Below are positions 1-44,068 of a DNA stretch of 48,499 bases, in pieces (position 1 is the stretch's first letter; each line of letters starts with the position of its first letter). The translations under genes and the position numbers were made by a program. A model generated the notes under the pieces. It was not told where the DNA came from. It was given only the letters and a program-made list of their open reading frames with translations, and did no database searches. The DNA lies in the NCBI RefSeq assembly GCF_001956585.1, contig NZ_MSRR01000016.1, forward strand, positions 1-48,499, given 5' to 3'. Source of the DNA: Actinomyces naeslundii (GTDB taxonomy: Bacteria > Actinomycetota > Actinomycetes > Actinomycetales > Actinomycetaceae).

Positions 1-2
1 CC

Positions 3-77
3 CGCCGTACCGTCCTGCGCTACAAGGCCGACCACCCCTGGACCAGCCTTCGGCTTGACGGCTTCGGGCACCTCTAG
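3..77 (+). CDS. 3' end of an unidentified gene (partial)
   Basis: An open frame enters from the left edge and stops with TAG at 75-77; its last residues are KADHPWTSLRLDGFGHL. High GC and third-position G/C preference match the host-like part of the window, unlike the AT-rich DNA that begins about 200 bases later. The fragment is too short to name. It could be the tail of a transposase or another enzyme, but nothing in it decides this. Confidence 0.3.
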   Translation, partial: RRTVLRYKADHPWTSLRLDGFGHL

Positions 78-447
78 GCCCTACCGGCTCCGTAGACACA
101 CGGCTCCTGCCTCCTGTCCACCACGCCCCTGAAGGAAGAACCCTCTGGCCCCCGGAAAGGCCCGACCACCGCGAGGCGACACGCGGCAAGCCGTCACACC
201 CAACCGGCATAATCTCACCCACGACACCGGCAACGACGCCGCCAAACCCCACTCAACCAACCAATGAAAGTTAGGATCGAGATGCACGACATGTCAAAGC
301 GCATTCTAGGGGAAGCAACGCTGTCAACAACTTACCTTATAATTAAATGATTGTAAATGGGGCGGATACATTCCAAGGGTGGCTGTAGCCAACAACGGGG
401 CGTAACATCTTCCTGCACCATTATCTGCTCCAATGAAGGACACCGCC
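78..447. other. Gene-poor junction between GC-rich and AT-rich DNA
   Basis: No credible gene is seen in these 370 bases. The left part (to about 260) is GC-rich; from about 265 the sequence turns markedly AT-rich and stays so through 4280. A perfect TATAAT at 338-343 is a plausible -10 box for the following gene, but no convincing -35 hexamer stands 16-18 bases upstream. The composition switch marks a likely insertion boundary. No inverted or direct repeat typical of an IS end or att site was recognised. Confidence 0.45.
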
Positions 448-2400
448 ATGCTCGGCTATCGCAGCAGTTTCTCTGTAGAACTAGATCCGCAGCTCGGTTT
501 GGATCGTGAGAAGGCCGTCGATGTGCTCCTCGGTGAAGGGTTCGCCTGGATGCGGAGTCAGAAGGGGGTTAAAAGCGTTGAAGATCTGGAACCGCTTCAT
601 GAGCAGAGGTTTCCGGGAGGTGATCGGGCAATTTATACCCGCAGCCGAACGGGTGCAGGAGTTGACTACGCCAAACTAATTTACTTTGATGCGCCGAGAG
701 GTGACGAGCAATGGGTTACCTCACTGCTCGTCGGTTTTGATTTCACTGATGACCGAGCTAAGCCCACAGTCGCCATCGAGATCGACTCACCGCCAGATCC
801 GAAAAATGAAGGAAAACCGCACTGGACTGCGAGACCTAAGCTCGTTCAGCGTGTCCTCGAGGCATACTCCTGTAGTGAGCACGGCTTAGTTATGGGGGCT
901 AAACCTGCATATCTACGCGGAGGTGAGGGAGTAAATTCCTTGATCGAGGGGATGGCTGATTCTCGTAGGCGTTCCCTTGTCATTATCTGTGCTGAGGATG
1001 GCACGGTTGATCCTACGTACTGGCAAAAAATTATGACTGAGTTAACGGTGCAGACGATTGGGCAAGCATCCGTATATGTGCTCGATAAGACGTCCACTGA
1101 AGAATTCAATGCCAGTGTGTCGAACGGACATCAAATCTCTCCATACTCCCCAAGAACTTTCAGGCCGCCGATTGACCCTACAGACCCTCAAGATGGGTTG
1201 AGGCACCGTGTGCTGTCTGCGCAAAGACTTATACAATCTACCGCTCCTTACCTTAGTCGCATGTATGGTCGCCTCTGTCGAGAACACGCCAATACTCAGC
1301 CTATCGGAAAATTTTTGCGGCGTCTCGATGCAGTGACTGCGCGAGAACTTGATCGTGCAACTCACCCGGGAAACAACGCTGTCGAGCTTCCCGCGGCCCC
1401 TGTAACGCCTGGATCCGAAACTATTGTGTTACAAACCATTCCCATTGGAGAGCAGGCTAAAGTAACCTCGATTGAAAAACGAAATCATGTTCGGAATGAA
1501 CTCCAAGATTCTGTTACGGAAACAGTCAACGGTGAGCAACTAGTTGACTTGCTTAACGAAAATGCTGAACTGCGGGCTGAACGAGATCGGCTTCAAGCTG
1601 CGGACGCACTGCTAAGGGAATCGCTGCAACGCGCTAACTCGTCAATCCAAAGACTTGAACAAACCATCGACGACAACATTGTCGATCATAATGAAATAGT
1701 TCAAGAAATGGAGTCTCGACACAAAGAAGAAATAGAGAACCAACAATTTGAATGGCTAATTAAGGATGAGGAGGCTCGAACTTCCTCGGATAAGGTCCGT
1801 TCACTCACCTACCAATTAGATGAAGCTCGTCGGTTGCTGATCGAGAATGGTATAGATGTCAGTAGTTCCCGTGGCGCTCCAGAATGCCGTTACGTGCAGG
1901 AACTGGGACAGTGGGAAGAGATTGAATTGTTCGGTAAAGACAAATTTCCGAACTTGGTATTTACTTGTGACTGGAAGAAGATGATGTATATCGCAGAACG
2001 GGACGAGAGCGGCGCCTGGTTATCTCAGACTTGGCAAAGCCTTGCCATGCTCGATGACTATTGTGAATTCCGTCGATCAGAAAAAGGAAGTAGATTTATT
2101 GGTGGATTACGTGAGTATCTTGAAGGTGGTTATGGTGGGGCATGGGCTATATCGTCCGGTCGCTATCGCTCTAATGAATCAGACATTGTAAAGGGTTCTA
2201 GGAAGTACTCTGCAGAGCGCATTTTTAATGTGCCAAAGGAGGTGGATCCTTCGGGAAAAGCAGTAATGTACTCTCATATTGTTATCCAAACGAAGGGTAC
2301 GGTGAGTCCTCGAATCTACTTTCGAGACTGTGTTCAGCAACTTGGTAAGATCGTTATTGGATACATTGGCAAGCATCCGCGTAATACTTTGACAAACTAA
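448..2400 (+). CDS. Large coiled-coil protein of unknown function in AT-rich island
   Basis: A 650-residue protein that I do not recognise. Start: ATG 433 is available, but AAGGA at 436-440 sits 7 nt before ATG 448, so 448 is preferred. Visible parts: an N-terminal globular region (about 1-165, opening GYRSSFSVEL); a middle region (about 165-285) with SLVIICAEDGTVDPTYW and a YSPRTFRPPIDPTDPQD stretch; a charged, heptad-like coiled coil at about 365-475 rich in E, R, Q and L; and a compact C-terminal domain ending KIVIGYIGKHPRNTLTN. There is no signal peptide, membrane segment, Walker motif or obvious nuclease motif. GC and codon use are far below those of the core genes, pointing to horizontal acquisition. 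It converges on the pentapeptide-repeat gene across a 205-base gap. The close of the protein loosely recalls other large actinobacterial hypotheticals with a terminal GYIG motif, but that is memory, not a search. Confidence 0.85.
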   Translation: MLGYRSSFSVELDPQLGLDREKAVDVLLGEGFAWMRSQKGVKSVEDLEPLHEQRFPGGDRAIYTRSRTGAGVDYAKLIYFDAPRGDEQWVTSLLVGFDFTDDRAKPTVAIEIDSPPDPKNEGKPHWTARPKLVQRVLEAYSCSEHGLVMGAKPAYLRGGEGVNSLIEGMADSRRRSLVIICAEDGTVDPTYWQKIMTELTVQTIGQASVYVLDKTSTEEFNASVSNGHQISPYSPRTFRPPIDPTDPQDGLRHRVLSAQRLIQSTAPYLSRMYGRLCREHANTQPIGKFLRRLDAVTARELDRATHPGNNAVELPAAPVTPGSETIVLQTIPIGEQAKVTSIEKRNHVRNELQDSVTETVNGEQLVDLLNENAELRAERDRLQAADALLRESLQRANSSIQRLEQTIDDNIVDHNEIVQEMESRHKEEIENQQFEWLIKDEEARTSSDKVRSLTYQLDEARRLLIENGIDVSSSRGAPECRYVQELGQWEEIELFGKDKFPNLVFTCDWKKMMYIAERDESGAWLSQTWQSLAMLDDYCEFRRSEKGSRFIGGLREYLEGGYGGAWAISSGRYRSNESDIVKGSRKYSAERIFNVPKEVDPSGKAVMYSHIVIQTKGTVSPRIYFRDCVQQLGKIVIGYIGKHPRNTLTN

Positions 2401-2605
2401 TGGAGACATTTTGGGAGTTTGGTCGCCCCTACTGGGAAGGTCAACGAGGTCTGTACTGTTCCACGTGGGGAGTTTTTGGCTGCGTCCTGGCTTCCGGGAC
2501 TGCGATGTGCGCCTCCTCCTGGCTCCGTTAGTACCAAGCGCTAGGAGGTCTCCAGTGTGGTCGTCCCCATCGACGAGTTGAGGCGTGCTCGTAACTGTTC
2601 TCTTC

Positions 2606-4282
2606 TCAGCTTCCGTTCTTCGGGAAATTGTCGGTAGGAGGTATCTCATCTCGCTGAACCTGCTCGTCGACGGGAATTTCGTAATGCCGATTACTTGATG
2701 GTGCTGGATTGTCTATGATGTCGAAAGTGATCCACTTTGCTCCTTCAGGGAGTCCTTCGTTGTTCACTTTTATGCTTTCGGGAAAAAATAAACTTACGTC
2801 TGGGCTAGGATTGAAGTTGGCATTCAGGAAATGATCGACTTCATTGTGCTTAGAGTTACTTTCTAGTTTGGTTTCCCAAAAATCAACGTCGTTTAAGAAA
2901 AAAGATCCCATAAAATTTGCGCCACGAGGAAACGTGGCTCTCCTAAAACTGACACTGTACTTGAATGTGACTTTATGAAATATAGATTCATGTGCGAATG
3001 TGACGCCCCACATAGAAGTGTCGCCATTGAAGGTAACGCCAGTGAAATTACTGCGCTGCTTAAAGATGGTTCCCGTAAAGTCGGTAGAATTATTAAATTC
3101 TGCATTTGAAAATATGGTGTCGTGCACAAAAATGGCGCCCAAAAAAAGGACACCATGTTTGAATTTTGCGTATTCTAAAATAGTTTCTCCACCAAATGTA
3201 ACGCCTGTAAAATCGGCAAACTGACGAAAGGTTGCCCTCTTTAAATTAACATACCCTGGAAAGGTGACACCTCTAAATTGAATTTCTTTCTCACAATTAA
3301 TGGCTTCGAAAGTGACGTTGGCTGTGAATGTGGCGAGGGTGAAAGAGATTTTATTTTCAAATGTGGATCCATCGAAGTAAACGTCCGAAAAACGAGTACC
3401 GGTGAAGTTGACTTTCTTTTTAAGTGTCGCATCACTAAAAATTGCCTGTCGATCAAATCTAACATTACCAAAGTTGACGCCTTGAGTAAAAATAGAATTT
3501 ATGAAAATTGCGCAATTTGCGAAAACGGAATCCTGAAAAGAAATATGTCCTGCGAATTTGATGTCTTGCACATTAAATGCTCCAATGTGTGATCCTGTAA
3601 ATTGAATCGATTCTGTTAGGGTGGCTCCATGAAGATTGAGGGTGCAGTGACTCCATGGGCCAGGGCTGGCGTTCTCTTTGGTGTCATTCTCGGAAACCGT
3701 TTTGAGATGGCTGTCCAGTACCGAGAGAATCGTAGATTCGACGGCTCCGTCTGCGCTGAGGGGCTGGTCATAGTTAGGGGTTCCATCGTCGTTGGTAGCG
3801 TACCGCGTGTCTCCGTTTGCGTCCTTGAGAAGTCGGTCGGTACGCAGGTATCCGCAGAGAATATCGACGACACGTTGATGGTAGGGGCCCTCGTAGGTGT
3901 CGGCCACGTCAGCCAGTGCGTAAACTCCAGCGATGCGCACCTGTGGTGAGGCGTCGCCCAGCTGCTGGACTGCACGAACAAGCTTTTCATCTGCCTCCCC
4001 GCGCTCAAGCGCTGCGCGTTCACGGTACTTGATGACTAGGTAGCCAACGGCGCCGACGCCGCCCAAAGCCGTCAAAGTGACTTTGATGCGTTCCAAAGGA
4101 TCGTGGGTCGCGCCAATGTGCCATCCTGCGAGAATGCGGCTCCATCCGTGTCCATATCCCCATATTGCGCTCAGTAGTGTGTAGGCAATGATGGCTATAA
4201 TGATCCAGGAGACAATAGCGCAGAACAACCCATTTTTGCGACGCCATGACGCGAACTGTCTCCATCGGAGATTGATGCTCAT
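2606..4282 (-). CDS. Membrane-anchored pentapeptide-repeat protein
   Basis: 558 residues. Two hydrophobic segments near the N-terminus (about 20-43 and 68-85) are followed by a charged, HEAT-like stretch (about 95-150: VRAVQQLGDASPQVRIAGVY, then a YLR motif) often found before pentapeptide repeats in actinobacterial proteins. A long run of paired pentapeptide repeats follows (about 215-470; units such as ADFTGVTF, ANFMGSFF, TDFTGTIF), which should fold as a right-handed quadrilateral beta-helix. A polar tail follows to 558. The start ATG overlaps the stop of the upstream AlbA-domain gene by 4 nt (ATGA), with GGAG 8 nt ahead, so the two are translationally coupled. The repeat region is strikingly AT-rich, whereas the partner gene is not. 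Pentapeptide proteins can mimic DNA or act as scaffolds; the role here is unknown. Confidence 0.88.
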   Translation of the reverse strand: MSINLRWRQFASWRRKNGLFCAIVSWIIIAIIAYTLLSAIWGYGHGWSRILAGWHIGATHDPLERIKVTLTALGGVGAVGYLVIKYRERAALERGEADEKLVRAVQQLGDASPQVRIAGVYALADVADTYEGPYHQRVVDILCGYLRTDRLLKDANGDTRYATNDDGTPNYDQPLSADGAVESTILSVLDSHLKTVSENDTKENASPGPWSHCTLNLHGATLTESIQFTGSHIGAFNVQDIKFAGHISFQDSVFANCAIFINSIFTQGVNFGNVRFDRQAIFSDATLKKKVNFTGTRFSDVYFDGSTFENKISFTLATFTANVTFEAINCEKEIQFRGVTFPGYVNLKRATFRQFADFTGVTFGGETILEYAKFKHGVLFLGAIFVHDTIFSNAEFNNSTDFTGTIFKQRSNFTGVTFNGDTSMWGVTFAHESIFHKVTFKYSVSFRRATFPRGANFMGSFFLNDVDFWETKLESNSKHNEVDHFLNANFNPSPDVSLFFPESIKVNNEGLPEGAKWITFDIIDNPAPSSNRHYEIPVDEQVQRDEIPPTDNFPKNGS

Positions 4283-5889
4283 TTGACGTCTCCGGAGAGT
4301 CTGTGGAGATAGGTGCGTCCGGCGTCGGTGATTCGGTAGCGCTGAAGGCGGCTCGTGGGCTTGTCGGGGATCGTTCGTTCGACGAGTCCGGCCTCGATCA
4401 ACGGTTCGACATGGCGCTGGAATGCGCGCGTCTGGTTCGTAATGCCCAGCGCGTTCATGATCTCTGCCCTGCTTGCTGTCGCTGTCTCCATCTGATGGAG
4501 AACAGTCAACTCGTCCGGCGTCAGAGCGGTAGTCGGTGTGCTTGGCACTCCGTCTTGGTGCTCCGACTTAGTGCCTCGACTTAGTGCCTTGGTGTCCTGA
4601 CTTAGTGCCTCGACTTGGTGCCTTGGTGCTCCGTCTTGGTGCTCCGACTTAGTGCCTCGACTTAGTGACTGGCTACTCCGACTTGGTGACTTAGTGCTTC
4701 GACTTGGTGACTCACCGTGTTCTCCGGCATCGGCAGGGTTGTGGCTGAGCACGTGGATCGTGACCCGCACGCGGTCGATGACCTCCTCGATGGTGGGCTC
4801 GGGCAAGCCGGCCTGGGCCACCTGCTCGAAGACGCGCTGGATGCCCGTACCCCACTGCTCCATGATCCCGGCTTCGCGGAAGATGCGCGCCAGTGCGGGG
4901 TTACGCAGTCGGGACACCCGCCGCATGGTGTCGACGGTCATGCCGGGGAGGAGTAGCCCGGGGCTGTCGATCTGGATCCGGTCGTCGTAGAAACCGATGC
5001 GGATCGGGGTACTGCTCTCGGCGTAGGAGGCGTGAACGAGGGCGTTGACGATGACCTCGCGGATCGGCTCGATGGGGATGGAGTAGACATCGCGGCGGCG
5101 CACTTCTCCGAAGACGGCGGTCTTGTAAGCGTGCTTCAGCAGGAACTCCACGGCCTGGTCAACGGCCAACGGCATCGGTCCGTGGATCTCAACCTGGTCG
5201 AAGATGTCCGTGCCCTGGGGGCCGCGCAACCGGCCGCACTGAACCCAGGCGGAGGGCAGGAAACGCGTGGGGTCGGGGCACGCAGCGAGAATCCCTGCGT
5301 AGGCCGGAATGATCTGATCGCCTTGTCTCACTGCAAGACCGAGTGCCAGCAGATCATCCGTGTCGGTGGTGCGGCCGCGCAGCTCGGCCAGAGCGCTCAG
5401 ATCCAGGTCAGTCAGGGTGGCGCGTGGCTCGGGCAGGTTCTCAAAAGCGATGCCGTGAGCGTTGCGTTCGAGCTCGGCGACCAGCGCCGGATCGGCCTGG
5501 CGAGTGGAGGAACCGAGACGCACGTAGACGCCCGCTTCTGGCCCCAGCCGAGTGATGTAGTGGGGGCGTCGGGTGCTCAGAGGAACATCGACGACGAGAA
5601 CAGTATTGCCGCCGAGCGTGACAAGGTCGATGGCGGGAACCAGCTGGGGCGAGATCCAGTCATCGATGAGACTGGCGACGCGCTCCTCCTCGGCGAGTGG
5701 GTCCTCAACACCGACCACGGTGCCATCATCCGCGATCCCGATGACGAGGCGACCACCCGCGGAGTTCGCGAAGGCCGTGATGGTGCGCAGTGGCCCGGTG
5801 GGTGAGCTGAGATCCCGCTTGAGCTCCAGAGTCTTGCCTTCGCGGTCTACGAGTCGGCCGTCATTTCCAAGGGTGAGGTAGTCAGTCAT
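4279..5889 (-). CDS. AlbA_2/Schlafen-type domain protein with HATPase-like and winged-helix regions
   Basis: 536 residues of the RecG-like transcriptional regulator family (COG2865-type). An AlbA_2 domain at about 14-125 carries TLELKRDLS, ITAFANSAGGRLVIGI and a GV-DP motif. A GHKL/HATPase_c_4-like region at about 270-380 has REVIVNALVHASYAE as N-box and QWGTGIQRV as glycine-rich motif. A low-complexity Ser/Arg/Thr/Lys linker (about 393-448) repeats SRGTKSEHQDG, and a winged helix closes the protein (about 455-530; DEL..LHQMETATASRAEI). GAGGA lies 5 nt before the ATG. The gene's GC is close to the host's, unlike the coupled downstream gene. Family members are annotated as transcriptional regulators and also occur in defence loci; neither role is shown here. 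Identification of the AlbA_2 domain is secure, function is not. Confidence 0.9.
   Translation of the reverse strand: MTDYLTLGNDGRLVDREGKTLELKRDLSSPTGPLRTITAFANSAGGRLVIGIADDGTVVGVEDPLAEEERVASLIDDWISPQLVPAIDLVTLGGNTVLVVDVPLSTRRPHYITRLGPEAGVYVRLGSSTRQADPALVAELERNAHGIAFENLPEPRATLTDLDLSALAELRGRTTDTDDLLALGLAVRQGDQIIPAYAGILAACPDPTRFLPSAWVQCGRLRGPQGTDIFDQVEIHGPMPLAVDQAVEFLLKHAYKTAVFGEVRRRDVYSIPIEPIREVIVNALVHASYAESSTPIRIGFYDDRIQIDSPGLLLPGMTVDTMRRVSRLRNPALARIFREAGIMEQWGTGIQRVFEQVAQAGLPEPTIEEVIDRVRVTIHVLSHNPADAGEHGESPSRSTKSPSRSSQSLSRGTKSEHQDGAPRHQVEALSQDTKALSRGTKSEHQDGVPSTPTTALTPDELTVLHQMETATASRAEIMNALGITNQTRAFQRHVEPLIEAGLVERTIPDKPTSRLQRYRITDAGRTYLHRLSGDVK
4548..4712 (-). repeat. In-frame direct repeats encoding the AlbA protein linker
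   Basis: A 39-base segment at 4548-4586 recurs exactly at 4629-4667 (offset 81 bases, 27 codons), and shorter units of the type CGACTTRGTGCCT fill the space to 4712. All units keep the reading frame of the minus-strand gene and encode alternating SRSTKS/SRGTKS blocks. This looks like a slippage- or recombination-prone minisatellite that can lengthen or shorten the linker between the ATPase-like and winged-helix regions without frameshift. The spacing and in-frame location exclude a CRISPR array. Confidence 0.85.
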
Positions 5890-6130
5890 ACGAATCCTCG
5901 AAAGACATTACTGGTGCGGGTACCGCCCGCGATTCGGGGCCCTGGGCCGACTGCAACAACACTAGCCGATCCGAGATGGAGAGTCGGGATCAGATGTGAC
6001 GTACCGGAAGAATGTTGAGAGGCCCAGCAGGTCCGGATGACGATTAGGACGTCATGATGTGGCTGCAGAGTGCGCGAGAGTGCGCGCGGCCCAGGGTGAC
6101 GTGCCCTCGGCGTCTCTGGGGCCAATCATC

Positions 6131-6141: not shown

Positions 6142-7357
<1,216 letters not shown>

Positions 7358-7368
<11 letters not shown>

Positions 7369-41947: not shown

Positions 41948-44068
41948 TCAGGCCTCGGGTGCGGTGACCTTGATAAGGGCCTCACCGGGCTCCACCGAGT
42001 CTCCGCCGACGACCTCAACCGAGGCGAAGGAGGCGGTGTTGGTGATGAGCACCGGCGTGGTCAGCGGGTAGCCGGCCTGCTCGATGACGGAGCGGTCCAC
42101 GCGGACGAGCTCCTGGCCCTCGCTGACGCGGTCGCCCTGGGAGACCTTGACGTCGAAGCCCTTGCCCTCCAGGTTGACGGTGTCCAGACCCACGTGGATG
42201 AGGATCTCCACGCCGTTGTCCAGGGTGATGCCGAAGGCGTGCCCCGAGGAGGGGGCAACGACGACGGTTCCGTCCGCGGGAGCTGTGACGACGATGTCGC
42301 CCTCGGGCTCCAGACCCACACCTTGGCCGACGGCGCCCGAGGAGAACACCGGGTCGGGAACCTTGTCCAGGTCCATGGTCGTGGCCTTGAGCGGCGAGGC
42401 GATCTCTGTGACCGCGCCGGGAACGAGGGCCGGCTTGGGCGTGGGGGCCTTGGCGGTCCGGTCGCCCTCCTCAGCGGTACCGGCAGCCGCGGCGGCGCCG
42501 TCGGTCTCGGGCTCCTCAGCGGCCTCAGCCGGGGCAGATGCAGAGACCTTGGCGGCCTCCGCGTCGGCCACAGCCGCACGGGCCTCGGCCCGCTCCTCCT
42601 TGGTGCGGTAGTCCGTGAAAATGATGAGAGTCATCGAGGTGGCGAAGGCCGCGGCGATGGCGATGCCGTACAGGGCCATGGGGGTGAAGACCGGGATGCT
42701 CAGCAGTGAGCTGAACACGAAGGTAGAGGCCTTGATACCGCCGCCGATACCGGTGATGAGACCGCCCACGAGACAGCCGGCCAGCAGACGCGGGTAGATG
42801 CGCTTGAAGCGCAGGTGGATACCGTAGAGGCTTGGCTCGGAGATGCCGCCGAAGAGGCCGGCGGCCAGGGCACCGGAGGCCGTCTGACGCATGACCTTGT
42901 CCTTGTCACGAATGGCCAGGACCAGCACACCGGCGGTGGCGCCGAAGCAGGCGAAGTTCCACGAGCCCATGGGACCCTGGATGAAGTCGTAGCCCAGCGA
43001 GCTGATGTTGGCCAGCATGATGGCGTTGAGTGGCCAGTGCAGACCCAGCGGCACCAGGAACGGGTAGAGCAGTGGGATGACGATTGCGAAGACGATCGGA
43101 GCGCTCGTGTTGAGCCACGCCAGTCCGGATCCCAGGCCTGTACCGACCCAGATACCTACTGGACCGATGATGAAGGCCGTCACCGGCATCATGATGATGA
43201 AGGAGAAGAACGGAACAAACACCATCTGCACGTTAGAGGGAATGAGCTTGGCCAGACCCTTGTAGACCAGGGCCAGGATGGCCACCATCATGAGGGGAAC
43301 GAAGACCTGGCCGCTGTAGTCGTTGAGCTGCATGGGAACGCCCGCGATATGCGCGACACACAGGTCCTTGTTCAACGTGGCGTTGTGGGTGCATGTCGTT
43401 CCCAGTGCCTTGCTGAGGTCAAGGAATGGAGGCGTCATCAGCGCCGCCATGACCGCGGCGCCGACCCAGGGGTCGATGTTGAGCTTCTTGGCGGCGTTGT
43501 AGGCCACCATGATGGGCAGGAAGTGGAACACCGACTTGTACATGGCCTCAGCGAAGACCTGTGCGGCGGGCTTGTCCGCGGCCGTCAGGTTCGGATCACT
43601 GGCATTGATGACGCCGAACGCATCCAGTACCGCAAGACCGGCGATGATGAGCGAGGCGCCCAGCAGCACCGGCAGCAGGGGACGGAAGGAGTCCGAAAGG
43701 TACTCGAAGAAGGCGTCGACCATGGCGTTCTTGCCACGGGCCTTGGCGCGGGCAGCGGCCTTGACGTCGGCGTCGGACTCACCTGAGCCGGAACCGGAGG
43801 AGCCGCTCTGGCTCTTCATGGCCGGCAGGTTGTTGATCTCGTCGTACACGCTCTGTACGGCACCACCGATGACGATCTGGTAGCGGTCCCCGGACTGGGG
43901 GACGGCGCCCATGACACCCGGGATGGCCTCGACGGTCGCCTTGTCGACGCCGGAGGCGTCCTTGAGCTCGAAGCGCAGCCGGGTGGCGCAGTGGGTGAAA
44001 TGGATGATGTTATCGGCGCCGCCGACGGCGTCGAGGATTGCCTCAGGGGTTGAGGTCGTAGTTGCCAT
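41948..44068 (-). CDS. PTS sugar permease EIIBCA, beta-glucoside/sucrose (BglF) type
   Basis: 706 residues with domains in the order B-C-A. EIIB (about 1-85) carries phospho-Cys27 in HCATRLRFEL; EIIC (about 110-460) has about ten membrane helices, including the LYGIHLRFKR loop; an Ala/Glu-rich linker (about 490-545) leads to EIIA (about 560-700) with GHAFGITLDNGVEILIHVGL, both EIIA histidines present. It imports and phosphorylates a sugar at PEP expense. The BglF-like order indicates a beta-glucoside, sucrose or trehalose type; the exact sugar cannot be told, and no hydrolase adjoins it. Confidence 0.93.
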   Translation of the reverse strand: MATTTSTPEAILDAVGGADNIIHFTHCATRLRFELKDASGVDKATVEAIPGVMGAVPQSGDRYQIVIGGAVQSVYDEINNLPAMKSQSGSSGSGSGESDADVKAAARAKARGKNAMVDAFFEYLSDSFRPLLPVLLGASLIIAGLAVLDAFGVINASDPNLTAADKPAAQVFAEAMYKSVFHFLPIMVAYNAAKKLNIDPWVGAAVMAALMTPPFLDLSKALGTTCTHNATLNKDLCVAHIAGVPMQLNDYSGQVFVPLMMVAILALVYKGLAKLIPSNVQMVFVPFFSFIIMMPVTAFIIGPVGIWVGTGLGSGLAWLNTSAPIVFAIVIPLLYPFLVPLGLHWPLNAIMLANISSLGYDFIQGPMGSWNFACFGATAGVLVLAIRDKDKVMRQTASGALAAGLFGGISEPSLYGIHLRFKRIYPRLLAGCLVGGLITGIGGGIKASTFVFSSLLSIPVFTPMALYGIAIAAAFATSMTLIIFTDYRTKEERAEARAAVADAEAAKVSASAPAEAAEEPETDGAAAAAGTAEEGDRTAKAPTPKPALVPGAVTEIASPLKATTMDLDKVPDPVFSSGAVGQGVGLEPEGDIVVTAPADGTVVVAPSSGHAFGITLDNGVEILIHVGLDTVNLEGKGFDVKVSQGDRVSEGQELVRVDRSVIEQAGYPLTTPVLITNTASFASVEVVGGDSVEPGEALIKVTAPEA

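Follow-up and report, generated by a model that had tools for sequence, protein, structure and literature searches.

The stretch analysed here, called the window throughout, is a whole contig (C16; 48,499 nucleotides) of the 3.12-Mb Actinomyces naeslundii genome, which is in 47 contigs. Its first 6 kb hold three genes, named A, B and C below. An earlier note on this DNA took positions 265-5889 for one recently acquired cassette and proposed that the three genes form a sensor-plus-effector defence system. Do these genes belong together, and what might A do? In what follows, numbers with the prefixes G, C and L denote genomes, contigs and loci. Neighbouring genes were called with a crude gene caller of our own, which frequently places starts too early. 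The features are as follows.

1..270, + strand: right-hand end of an insertion sequence that the contig edge truncates; positions 3-77 are the last part of its transposase frame.
448..2400, + strand: gene A, 650 amino acids, a divergent relative of PADLOC HEC-07 and a candidate single-gene defence protein.
856..1302, + strand: residues 137-285 of A, a thioredoxin-like fold in the predicted model, overlapping the part matched by HEC-07 (127-266).
1531..1845, + strand: residues 362-466 of A, a long coiled coil, one continuous helix in the predicted model.
1915..2397, + strand: residues 490-650 of A, a C-terminal domain common to HEC-07 and NsnC, with a RelE/YoeB-like predicted fold and conserved H610, R622 and H643.
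2431..2681, + strand: 3'-end fragment of an EamA-type transporter gene, which also overlaps the 3' end of gene B.
2606..4282, - strand: gene B, 558 amino acids, a pentapeptide-repeat protein with an N-terminal hydrophobic segment, in the pglZ slot of relatives that carry bacteriophage exclusion (BREX) operons.
4279..4282, - strand: four nucleotides in which the stop of C overlaps the start of B; C and pglZ are coupled in the same way in L164.
4279..5889, - strand: gene C, 536 amino acids, with SLFN_AlbA_2, HATPase_c_4 and a winged-helix-type domain, a BREX-linked Schlafen-type gene, orphaned here.
6142..7368, + strand: phoH-type gene, the conserved right-hand anchor of a variable site, with orthologues in relatives; the name phoH is our assumption.

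The three open reading frames of the earlier note are real and stand in the order it gave, with the translational coupling of C to B that it described. The low guanine-plus-cytosine (GC) content that it reported is also there: 1-kb windows in 1001-4000 have values of 0.42-0.48, against about 0.70 across most of the window. Gene by gene, GC content is 0.486 for A, 0.466 for B, 0.636 for C and 0.707 for the neighbouring phoH; B is a mosaic, with 0.574 in its first 540 bases and 0.414 in the rest. Because low GC content fits A and B but not C, we reject the single recent cassette. Recent acquisition holds for part of the stretch, whereas C is resident at the site. Likewise, the edge placed near 265 exists, but it is the end of an insertion sequence at position 270. 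The AlbA/HATPase assignment of C is borne out and can be extended by the C-terminal winged-helix-type domain. For B, the note had proposed a pentapeptide protein anchored by two membrane helices. The repeat family is right (Pentapeptide_3, PF13576; E 7e-38, 129 bits against a curated cut-off of 27), but of the two hydrophobic segments in the hydropathy profile only the first, within residues 15-45, is strong; the second (66-84) is weak.

Gene A has two candidate starts. We set the start at 448, giving the 650 residues claimed earlier, because GAAGGA precedes this ATG and several relatives begin at a matching MLxYRS; the start at 433 has neither. The PADLOC profile for HEC-07 (PDLC04161) matches only residues 127-266 of A (profile positions 141-282; E 5e-12, 43 bits), although relatives of A match it with E values down to 1.4e-25. 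The profile for NsnC matches the other end of the protein, residues 499-643 (E 1.6e-9). How are these two families connected? A HEC-07 search of 396 genomes gave matches in 24. Two of these proteins, L244 and L246, cover nearly the full HEC-07 profile, and their C-termini also match NsnC, weakly in the case of L246. Conversely, a hidden Markov model (HMM) of the C-terminal domain of A finds the C-termini of three HEC-07 matches (L250, L251 and L252) with E values of 1e-9 to 2e-10; its hits to those of L260, L245 and L267 are weaker. The other HEC-07 proteins score poorly (E 0.0001 to >1), several at chance level. From the NsnC matches of L244 and L246 and the hits of the A-domain HMM we conclude that A, HEC-07 and NsnC have a C-terminal domain in common and that A is a divergent relative of HEC-07.

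The likeness to HEC-07 extends over the whole protein: A has the matching N-terminal region, the coiled coil and the C-terminal domain with its three conserved residues, and thus the same overall architecture. Hma genes accompany up to 16 of 88 loci of A relatives. The differences are that the HEC-07 match of A is weak, that its C-terminal domain scores with NsnC and not with the HEC-07 profile, and that no Hma operon was seen next to A in the window, where only 447 bp of contig precede the gene. Since embedding in an Hma operon counts as context, we name A a relative of HEC-07. NsnC shares the C-terminal domain with A (499-643), but A has a long N-terminal half, and no NsnA-type neighbour was seen in the window. 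The domain is modular, because two relatives, L044 (336 amino acids) and L115 (291 amino acids, both lengths from the crude gene caller), carry it without the N-terminal half. We take HEC-07 to belong to the embedded candidates from a 2024 preprint by Payne and colleagues. The name was not found in the literature searched; nor was a paper on NsnC, the Nsn-term matches looked at being unrelated. HEC-05 and HEC-06, the only such names in the passages of PMC11411939 concerned, are described there as proteins embedded in Hma clusters, citing that preprint; the Hma system itself is described in PMC8565338, in the part consulted.

The earlier note saw no recognisable enzyme motif in A. This was too strong, as the C-terminal domain has conserved histidines and an arginine and a predicted fold resembling that of toxin ribonucleases (RNases). 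A first alignment had 60 rows, the window and 59 of 69 loci found by a peptide-pattern scan, with shorter or split frames and a duplicate of L032 left out; the scan pattern covers K634 and G638-H643, so their apparent invariance in this alignment is in part a product of the selection. In a recount on 20 sequences, 18 of them pattern-free, K634 falls to 16/20 and Y639 to 12/20; H643 is unchanged. On the HEC-07 side, the first alignment held 11 proteins, and its 11/11 count for the pattern is biased because they had been chosen for a visible C-terminus. Frames were therefore re-picked for all 25 HEC-07 loci. Six of these are A relatives (L248, L249, L255, L256, L258 and L263), L247 and L267 represent a single protein, the match of L266 is spurious and L254 is truncated by the locus end, which leaves 16. 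By eye, 15 of the 16 have the His...Arg...His pattern; L253 lacks the first His. Thus H610, R622 and H643 are conserved in 20/20 A sequences and 15/16 assessable HEC-07 proteins, and they look catalytic.

What kind of enzyme might this be? Structural matches of the model of the C-terminal domain mix mRNA-cleaving toxins with ParE, at low absolute Z scores. The predicted fold and the active-site-like set of His and Arg resemble those of RelE/ParE (BECR-fold) toxins such as YoeB, RelE and HigB. A differs from them in having no sequence match, in being fused to a large N-terminal half and in having no recognised antitoxin gene beside it. None of 60 gene A members matches a Pfam toxin family, and an hhalign comparison of the domain with 16 YoeB proteins of the genus (16 of 25 script-scanned loci) gave 0.1%. 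Because there is no match to a toxin family or YoeB profile, we do not file the domain under RelE/ParE and say only that it may work like one. With the full-length profile, PDB sequences gave mostly coiled-coil matches, apart from a single marginal match to a designed repeat protein (E 0.00098); with the domain profile nothing fell below E 0.18, and in a viral fold library nothing fell below E 0.36. VIA, run on the whole model of A, tests mainly residues 137-285; the N-terminal beta domain (1-120) was folded only as part of the full-length protein. The thioredoxin-like fold of the model has no conserved Cys. Cami1 (PDB 8phj), a cyclic-nucleotide-gated RNase of the RelE type, offers a comparison, although its sensor half may be unrelated to that of A. 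BECR-fold toxins are surveyed in PMC11980606, in the part consulted.

We propose that A could act alone, as both sensor and effector. The N-terminal half, with its beta domain and thioredoxin-like fold, would act via the coiled coil to keep the C-terminal domain inactive, and would release it on sensing an infection cue. The freed domain would cut mRNA, probably on the ribosome in the manner of YoeB and RelE. In this scheme H643 would serve as general acid and H610 and/or E577 as general base, while R622 would stabilise the transition state. Growth and phage production would then stop. We regard this RNase mechanism as a lead, with odds somewhat short of even. More tentative still is its extension to the families: A, HEC-07 and NsnC might share one undescribed RelE-fold RNase domain, and HEC-07-type proteins might each be a complete abortive-infection device encoded by one gene, with a thioredoxin-like sensor half taking the role of a separate antitoxin and gating, via a long coiled coil, a ribosome-dependent mRNA-cutting toxin.

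The domain might instead not be an RNase at all. ParE has the same fold, so the domain could be a gyrase-type inhibitor, or it could be a binding module, with A acting in some other way. The mixed list of structural matches, the low Z scores and the negative comparison with YoeB all fit this reading. On the other side stand the three near-invariant residues. We judge it unlikely, though not negligibly so.

Gene C has a different history. Its Pfam domains (PF04326 at 17-132, PF13749 at 294-378 and Fic-like_C at 463-521) follow the order Schlafen/AlbA_2, HATPase/kinase and winged helix-turn-helix (wHTH). Proteins in which a Schlafen RNase is joined to a minimal histidine kinase and a wHTH are described, in the part of PMC12839542 consulted, as backup effectors of BREX and BREX-related systems in at least 1017 taxa. 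C resembles them in domain order and, in relatives, in its linkage to BREX; it differs in that no BREX core gene is left beside it in the window. The HATPase and winged-helix parts are joined by a Ser/Arg-rich linker, encoded by short tandem-like repeats at 4541-4602; because the sequence matches G417 in shifted register, the length of this linker probably varies.

Twenty loci were fetched around C matches. In ten of them phoH is present, adjoining C in nine, with an EamA-type gene between the two in G418. The C proteins of G417, G440, G416 and G396 are 82-91% identical to that of the window, and C is split or has stops in six genomes (G404, G418, G419, G422, G423 and G438). An intact C is directly followed by pglZ and brxL in G421, G443, G414 and G407, as is a broken C in G404 and G418. 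Upstream of C, pglX is found in the same genomes except G418, separated from C by an AAA_13/PDC-S06 ATPase (G421, G414 and G404) or another gene (G443 and G407). In G443 brxC precedes pglX, and BrxC and PglX lie upstream of C in L164. The operon order in the genus is brxC - pglX - (AAA ATPase or another gene) - C - pglZ - brxL, and by gene set these are type I BREX operons. A PglZ profile finds six full-length genes in 49 genomes of the genus, every one beside a C orthologue (intact in four, broken in two), and one weak match in G397. Beside C, pglZ-matching remnants occur in G397 and G438.

In the window, BREX is absent around C. No BREX core gene stands beside it (its neighbouring frames within 1-6000 are A and B), and no remnant of pglZ or brxL was seen. 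The PglZ profile finds nothing in this genome; brxA, brxB, brxC, pglX and brxL were not searched genome-wide. The BREX operon abuts an EamA gene in G414 and G404, and such a gene lies to the left of C in G396 and of B in G417; in G418 phoH/EamA on one side and the ABC permease on the other flank a broken C, pglZ and brxL. The C-pglZ-brxL linkage of relatives, this synteny and the four-nucleotide overlap of C with pglZ in L164, identical to that of C with B here, lead us to read C as what remains of a BREX operon that once stood here. A full-length pglZ is missing from 14 of the 20 fetched loci, so C can persist after BREX is lost or exist independently of it. Its ratio of nonsynonymous to synonymous substitution rates (dN/dS) is 0.12 against G440 and 0.17 against G417, and 0.51-0.52 against G416 and G396; in the closest pairs, these values indicate purifying selection on C. 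At E <1e-60 a 296-genome phylum sample yielded C only from its own genome. Near phoH, G418 (L171) has a broken C followed by intact-looking pglZ and brxL with no pglX in the stretch, and G419 (L174) has a broken C followed by a short frame resembling, by eye, the N-terminus of pglZ. These are BREX operons decaying piecewise at one site.

Matches to B occur in 22 of the 49 genus genomes, its own included. B adjoins C in G417, G440 and G416, being shortened in the last and followed there by a transposase-type gene; it stands beside phoH without C in G415 and, among the matches listed, is found apart from C in the majority of the 22 genomes. The site therefore often holds B, but its partnership with C is not fixed. 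In G396 the slot that B fills in sister species holds a 140-amino-acid AT-rich gene (L159 5074-5496; GC 0.43) with no Pfam match.

Could B and C nevertheless form a two-gene module, C having taken B as a new partner in the coupled slot of pglZ after BREX was lost? In G000, G417, G440 and G416 (with the shortened B) the two genes adjoin and, by our own gene calls, their frames overlap by four nucleotides; both appear to be under purifying selection, with dN/dS of 0.12-0.52 for C and 0.24-0.28 for B. But the pairing is seen at this one site only, G415 has B without C and G396 has C without B. B also evolves far faster, with 46-66% identity to G417 and G440 where C has 87-91%, and among the matches listed 18 of the 22 genomes with B have no full C orthologue beside it. 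We consider a module improbable.

A 97% identical copy of window positions 1-270 lies at the end of contig C21 of the same genome, G440 has eight copies at 86%, and 20 of the 49 genus genomes, its own included, match it at least partly. One of the G440 copies has a DDE_Tnp_1_4 transposase domain, and the same RRTVLRYKADHP stretch lies in a frame of that locus. A starts 178 bases inside the junction. The EamA fragment, assigned by Pfam, is 72% identical to the end of EamA in G417, and 2445-2691 is 77% identical to C28:38439-38684 of the same genome. There an intact EamA gene persists, in a block 92% identical to that of G417 and followed by genes other than B, C or phoH. In L188, on contig C21 (6889-8216 and 9704-9974), the second copy of the insertion-sequence end lies near another AT-rich pair of genes (GC 0.48-0.50), one with a SocA/Panacea antitoxin domain; the element may also mark fresh accessory genes elsewhere in the genome. 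At G435:C5:58082-58656 a fragment of B (58082-58378) directly adjoins another copy (58385-58656), and the insertion sequence seems to have struck a B gene there too.

Where else does A occur? Relatives are present in nine of the 49 genus genomes and seven of the 396 genomes of a phylum sample, the own genome included in both counts. A scan of about 85,000 species genomes gave 69 loci, all Actinomycetota by record titles; the count is not exhaustive because one peptide pattern ([KD][VI][VIY][VI]GYIGxH) was used. Plasmid records hold seven relatives in 72,556 (24-35% identity), 50,697 phage records none, and viral contigs two loci; we therefore reject A as phage cargo. At least one defence-type match lies in 40 of 88 A loci, or 38 of 85 without three duplicates (five loci without an assigned A frame could not enter the duplicate check). 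By comparison, only one of 20 control stretches has one, a C5 methyltransferase; this contrast is partly circular because 19 of the 21 defence-type query proteins came from A loci, the other two coming from C loci. The matches are HmaC (16), HmaB (15), PDC-S37 (12), DUF262 (6), type IIG (6) and HsdM (5), with pglX and brxL together in one locus. The connection to defence that the earlier note drew holds, and we think it likely that A is a defence gene. No obvious small antitoxin gene was found among 18 open reading frames of 20-84 codons around 1-447 and 2390-2700. By the rough gene caller, a same-strand neighbour lies within 50 bp upstream of A in 26 of 80 loci and downstream in 15 (the 88 minus the five without a frame and the three duplicates). 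A is a mobile-looking single-gene candidate defence protein.

One set of neighbours might suggest a partner. A-type proteins and DUF262 (GmrSD/NsnA-like) proteins could be the two components of a type IV restriction device. DUF262-type genes directly adjoin A in L042, L052, L106 and L107 and lie one gene away in L028; those of L028, L052, L106 and L107 match NsnA weakly, and the C-terminal domain of A matches NsnC. However, the fetched flanks of 82 of the 88 loci contain no DUF262 match, none was seen in the first 6 kb of the window, and no single neighbour family reaches a fifth of the loci, HmaC being the commonest. We judge this arrangement quite improbable. That A, B and C form one three-gene system is close to refuted: they are neighbours, A and B are both low in GC content and C is coupled to B, but none of the 88 A loci has a B or C relative in its fetched flanks, C occurs in genomes with no A or B match among the matches listed (G396, G436 and G405), and B sits at the site without C in G415. 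Within the genus, six of the nine genomes with A also have a B match, where four would be expected from 22/49.

Elsewhere in the window, GC content dips a second time, to 0.63 at 42.5-44 kb. That region holds a long transporter-like frame (41948-44068), which we take to resemble an ordinary phosphotransferase system permease.

Our best explanation gives A, B and C separate stories rather than one system. The stretch would be a variable site, bounded by phoH and an ABC-transporter/EamA block, in which unrelated, mostly defence-type genes collect. C would be a resident left intact where BREX is absent, and B, with its membrane anchor, would have come to lie in the place of pglZ, keeping the four-nucleotide coupling. 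A would be a later arrival beside the insertion sequence, a one-gene HEC-07-like candidate defence protein, possibly working alone as sensor and RNase effector. We give the whole of this reading a probability of roughly 0.6. Its layout is well supported and very probably correct. The gene order, the synteny, the BREX linkage in relatives, the relationship to HEC-07, the defence neighbourhoods and the conserved residues are observed; that A works alone as sensor and effector is inferred.

A traceable history thus takes the place of a tempting three-gene system: BREX is absent, its Schlafen protein is an orphan, the coupled slot has a new occupant and a defence gene stands next to an insertion sequence. 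The two PADLOC names HEC-07 and NsnC are linked by a single C-terminal domain, whose three conserved residues lend themselves to mutation. Should this domain be an RNase, a testable mechanism would become available for a candidate defence family whose effector we did not find described in print.
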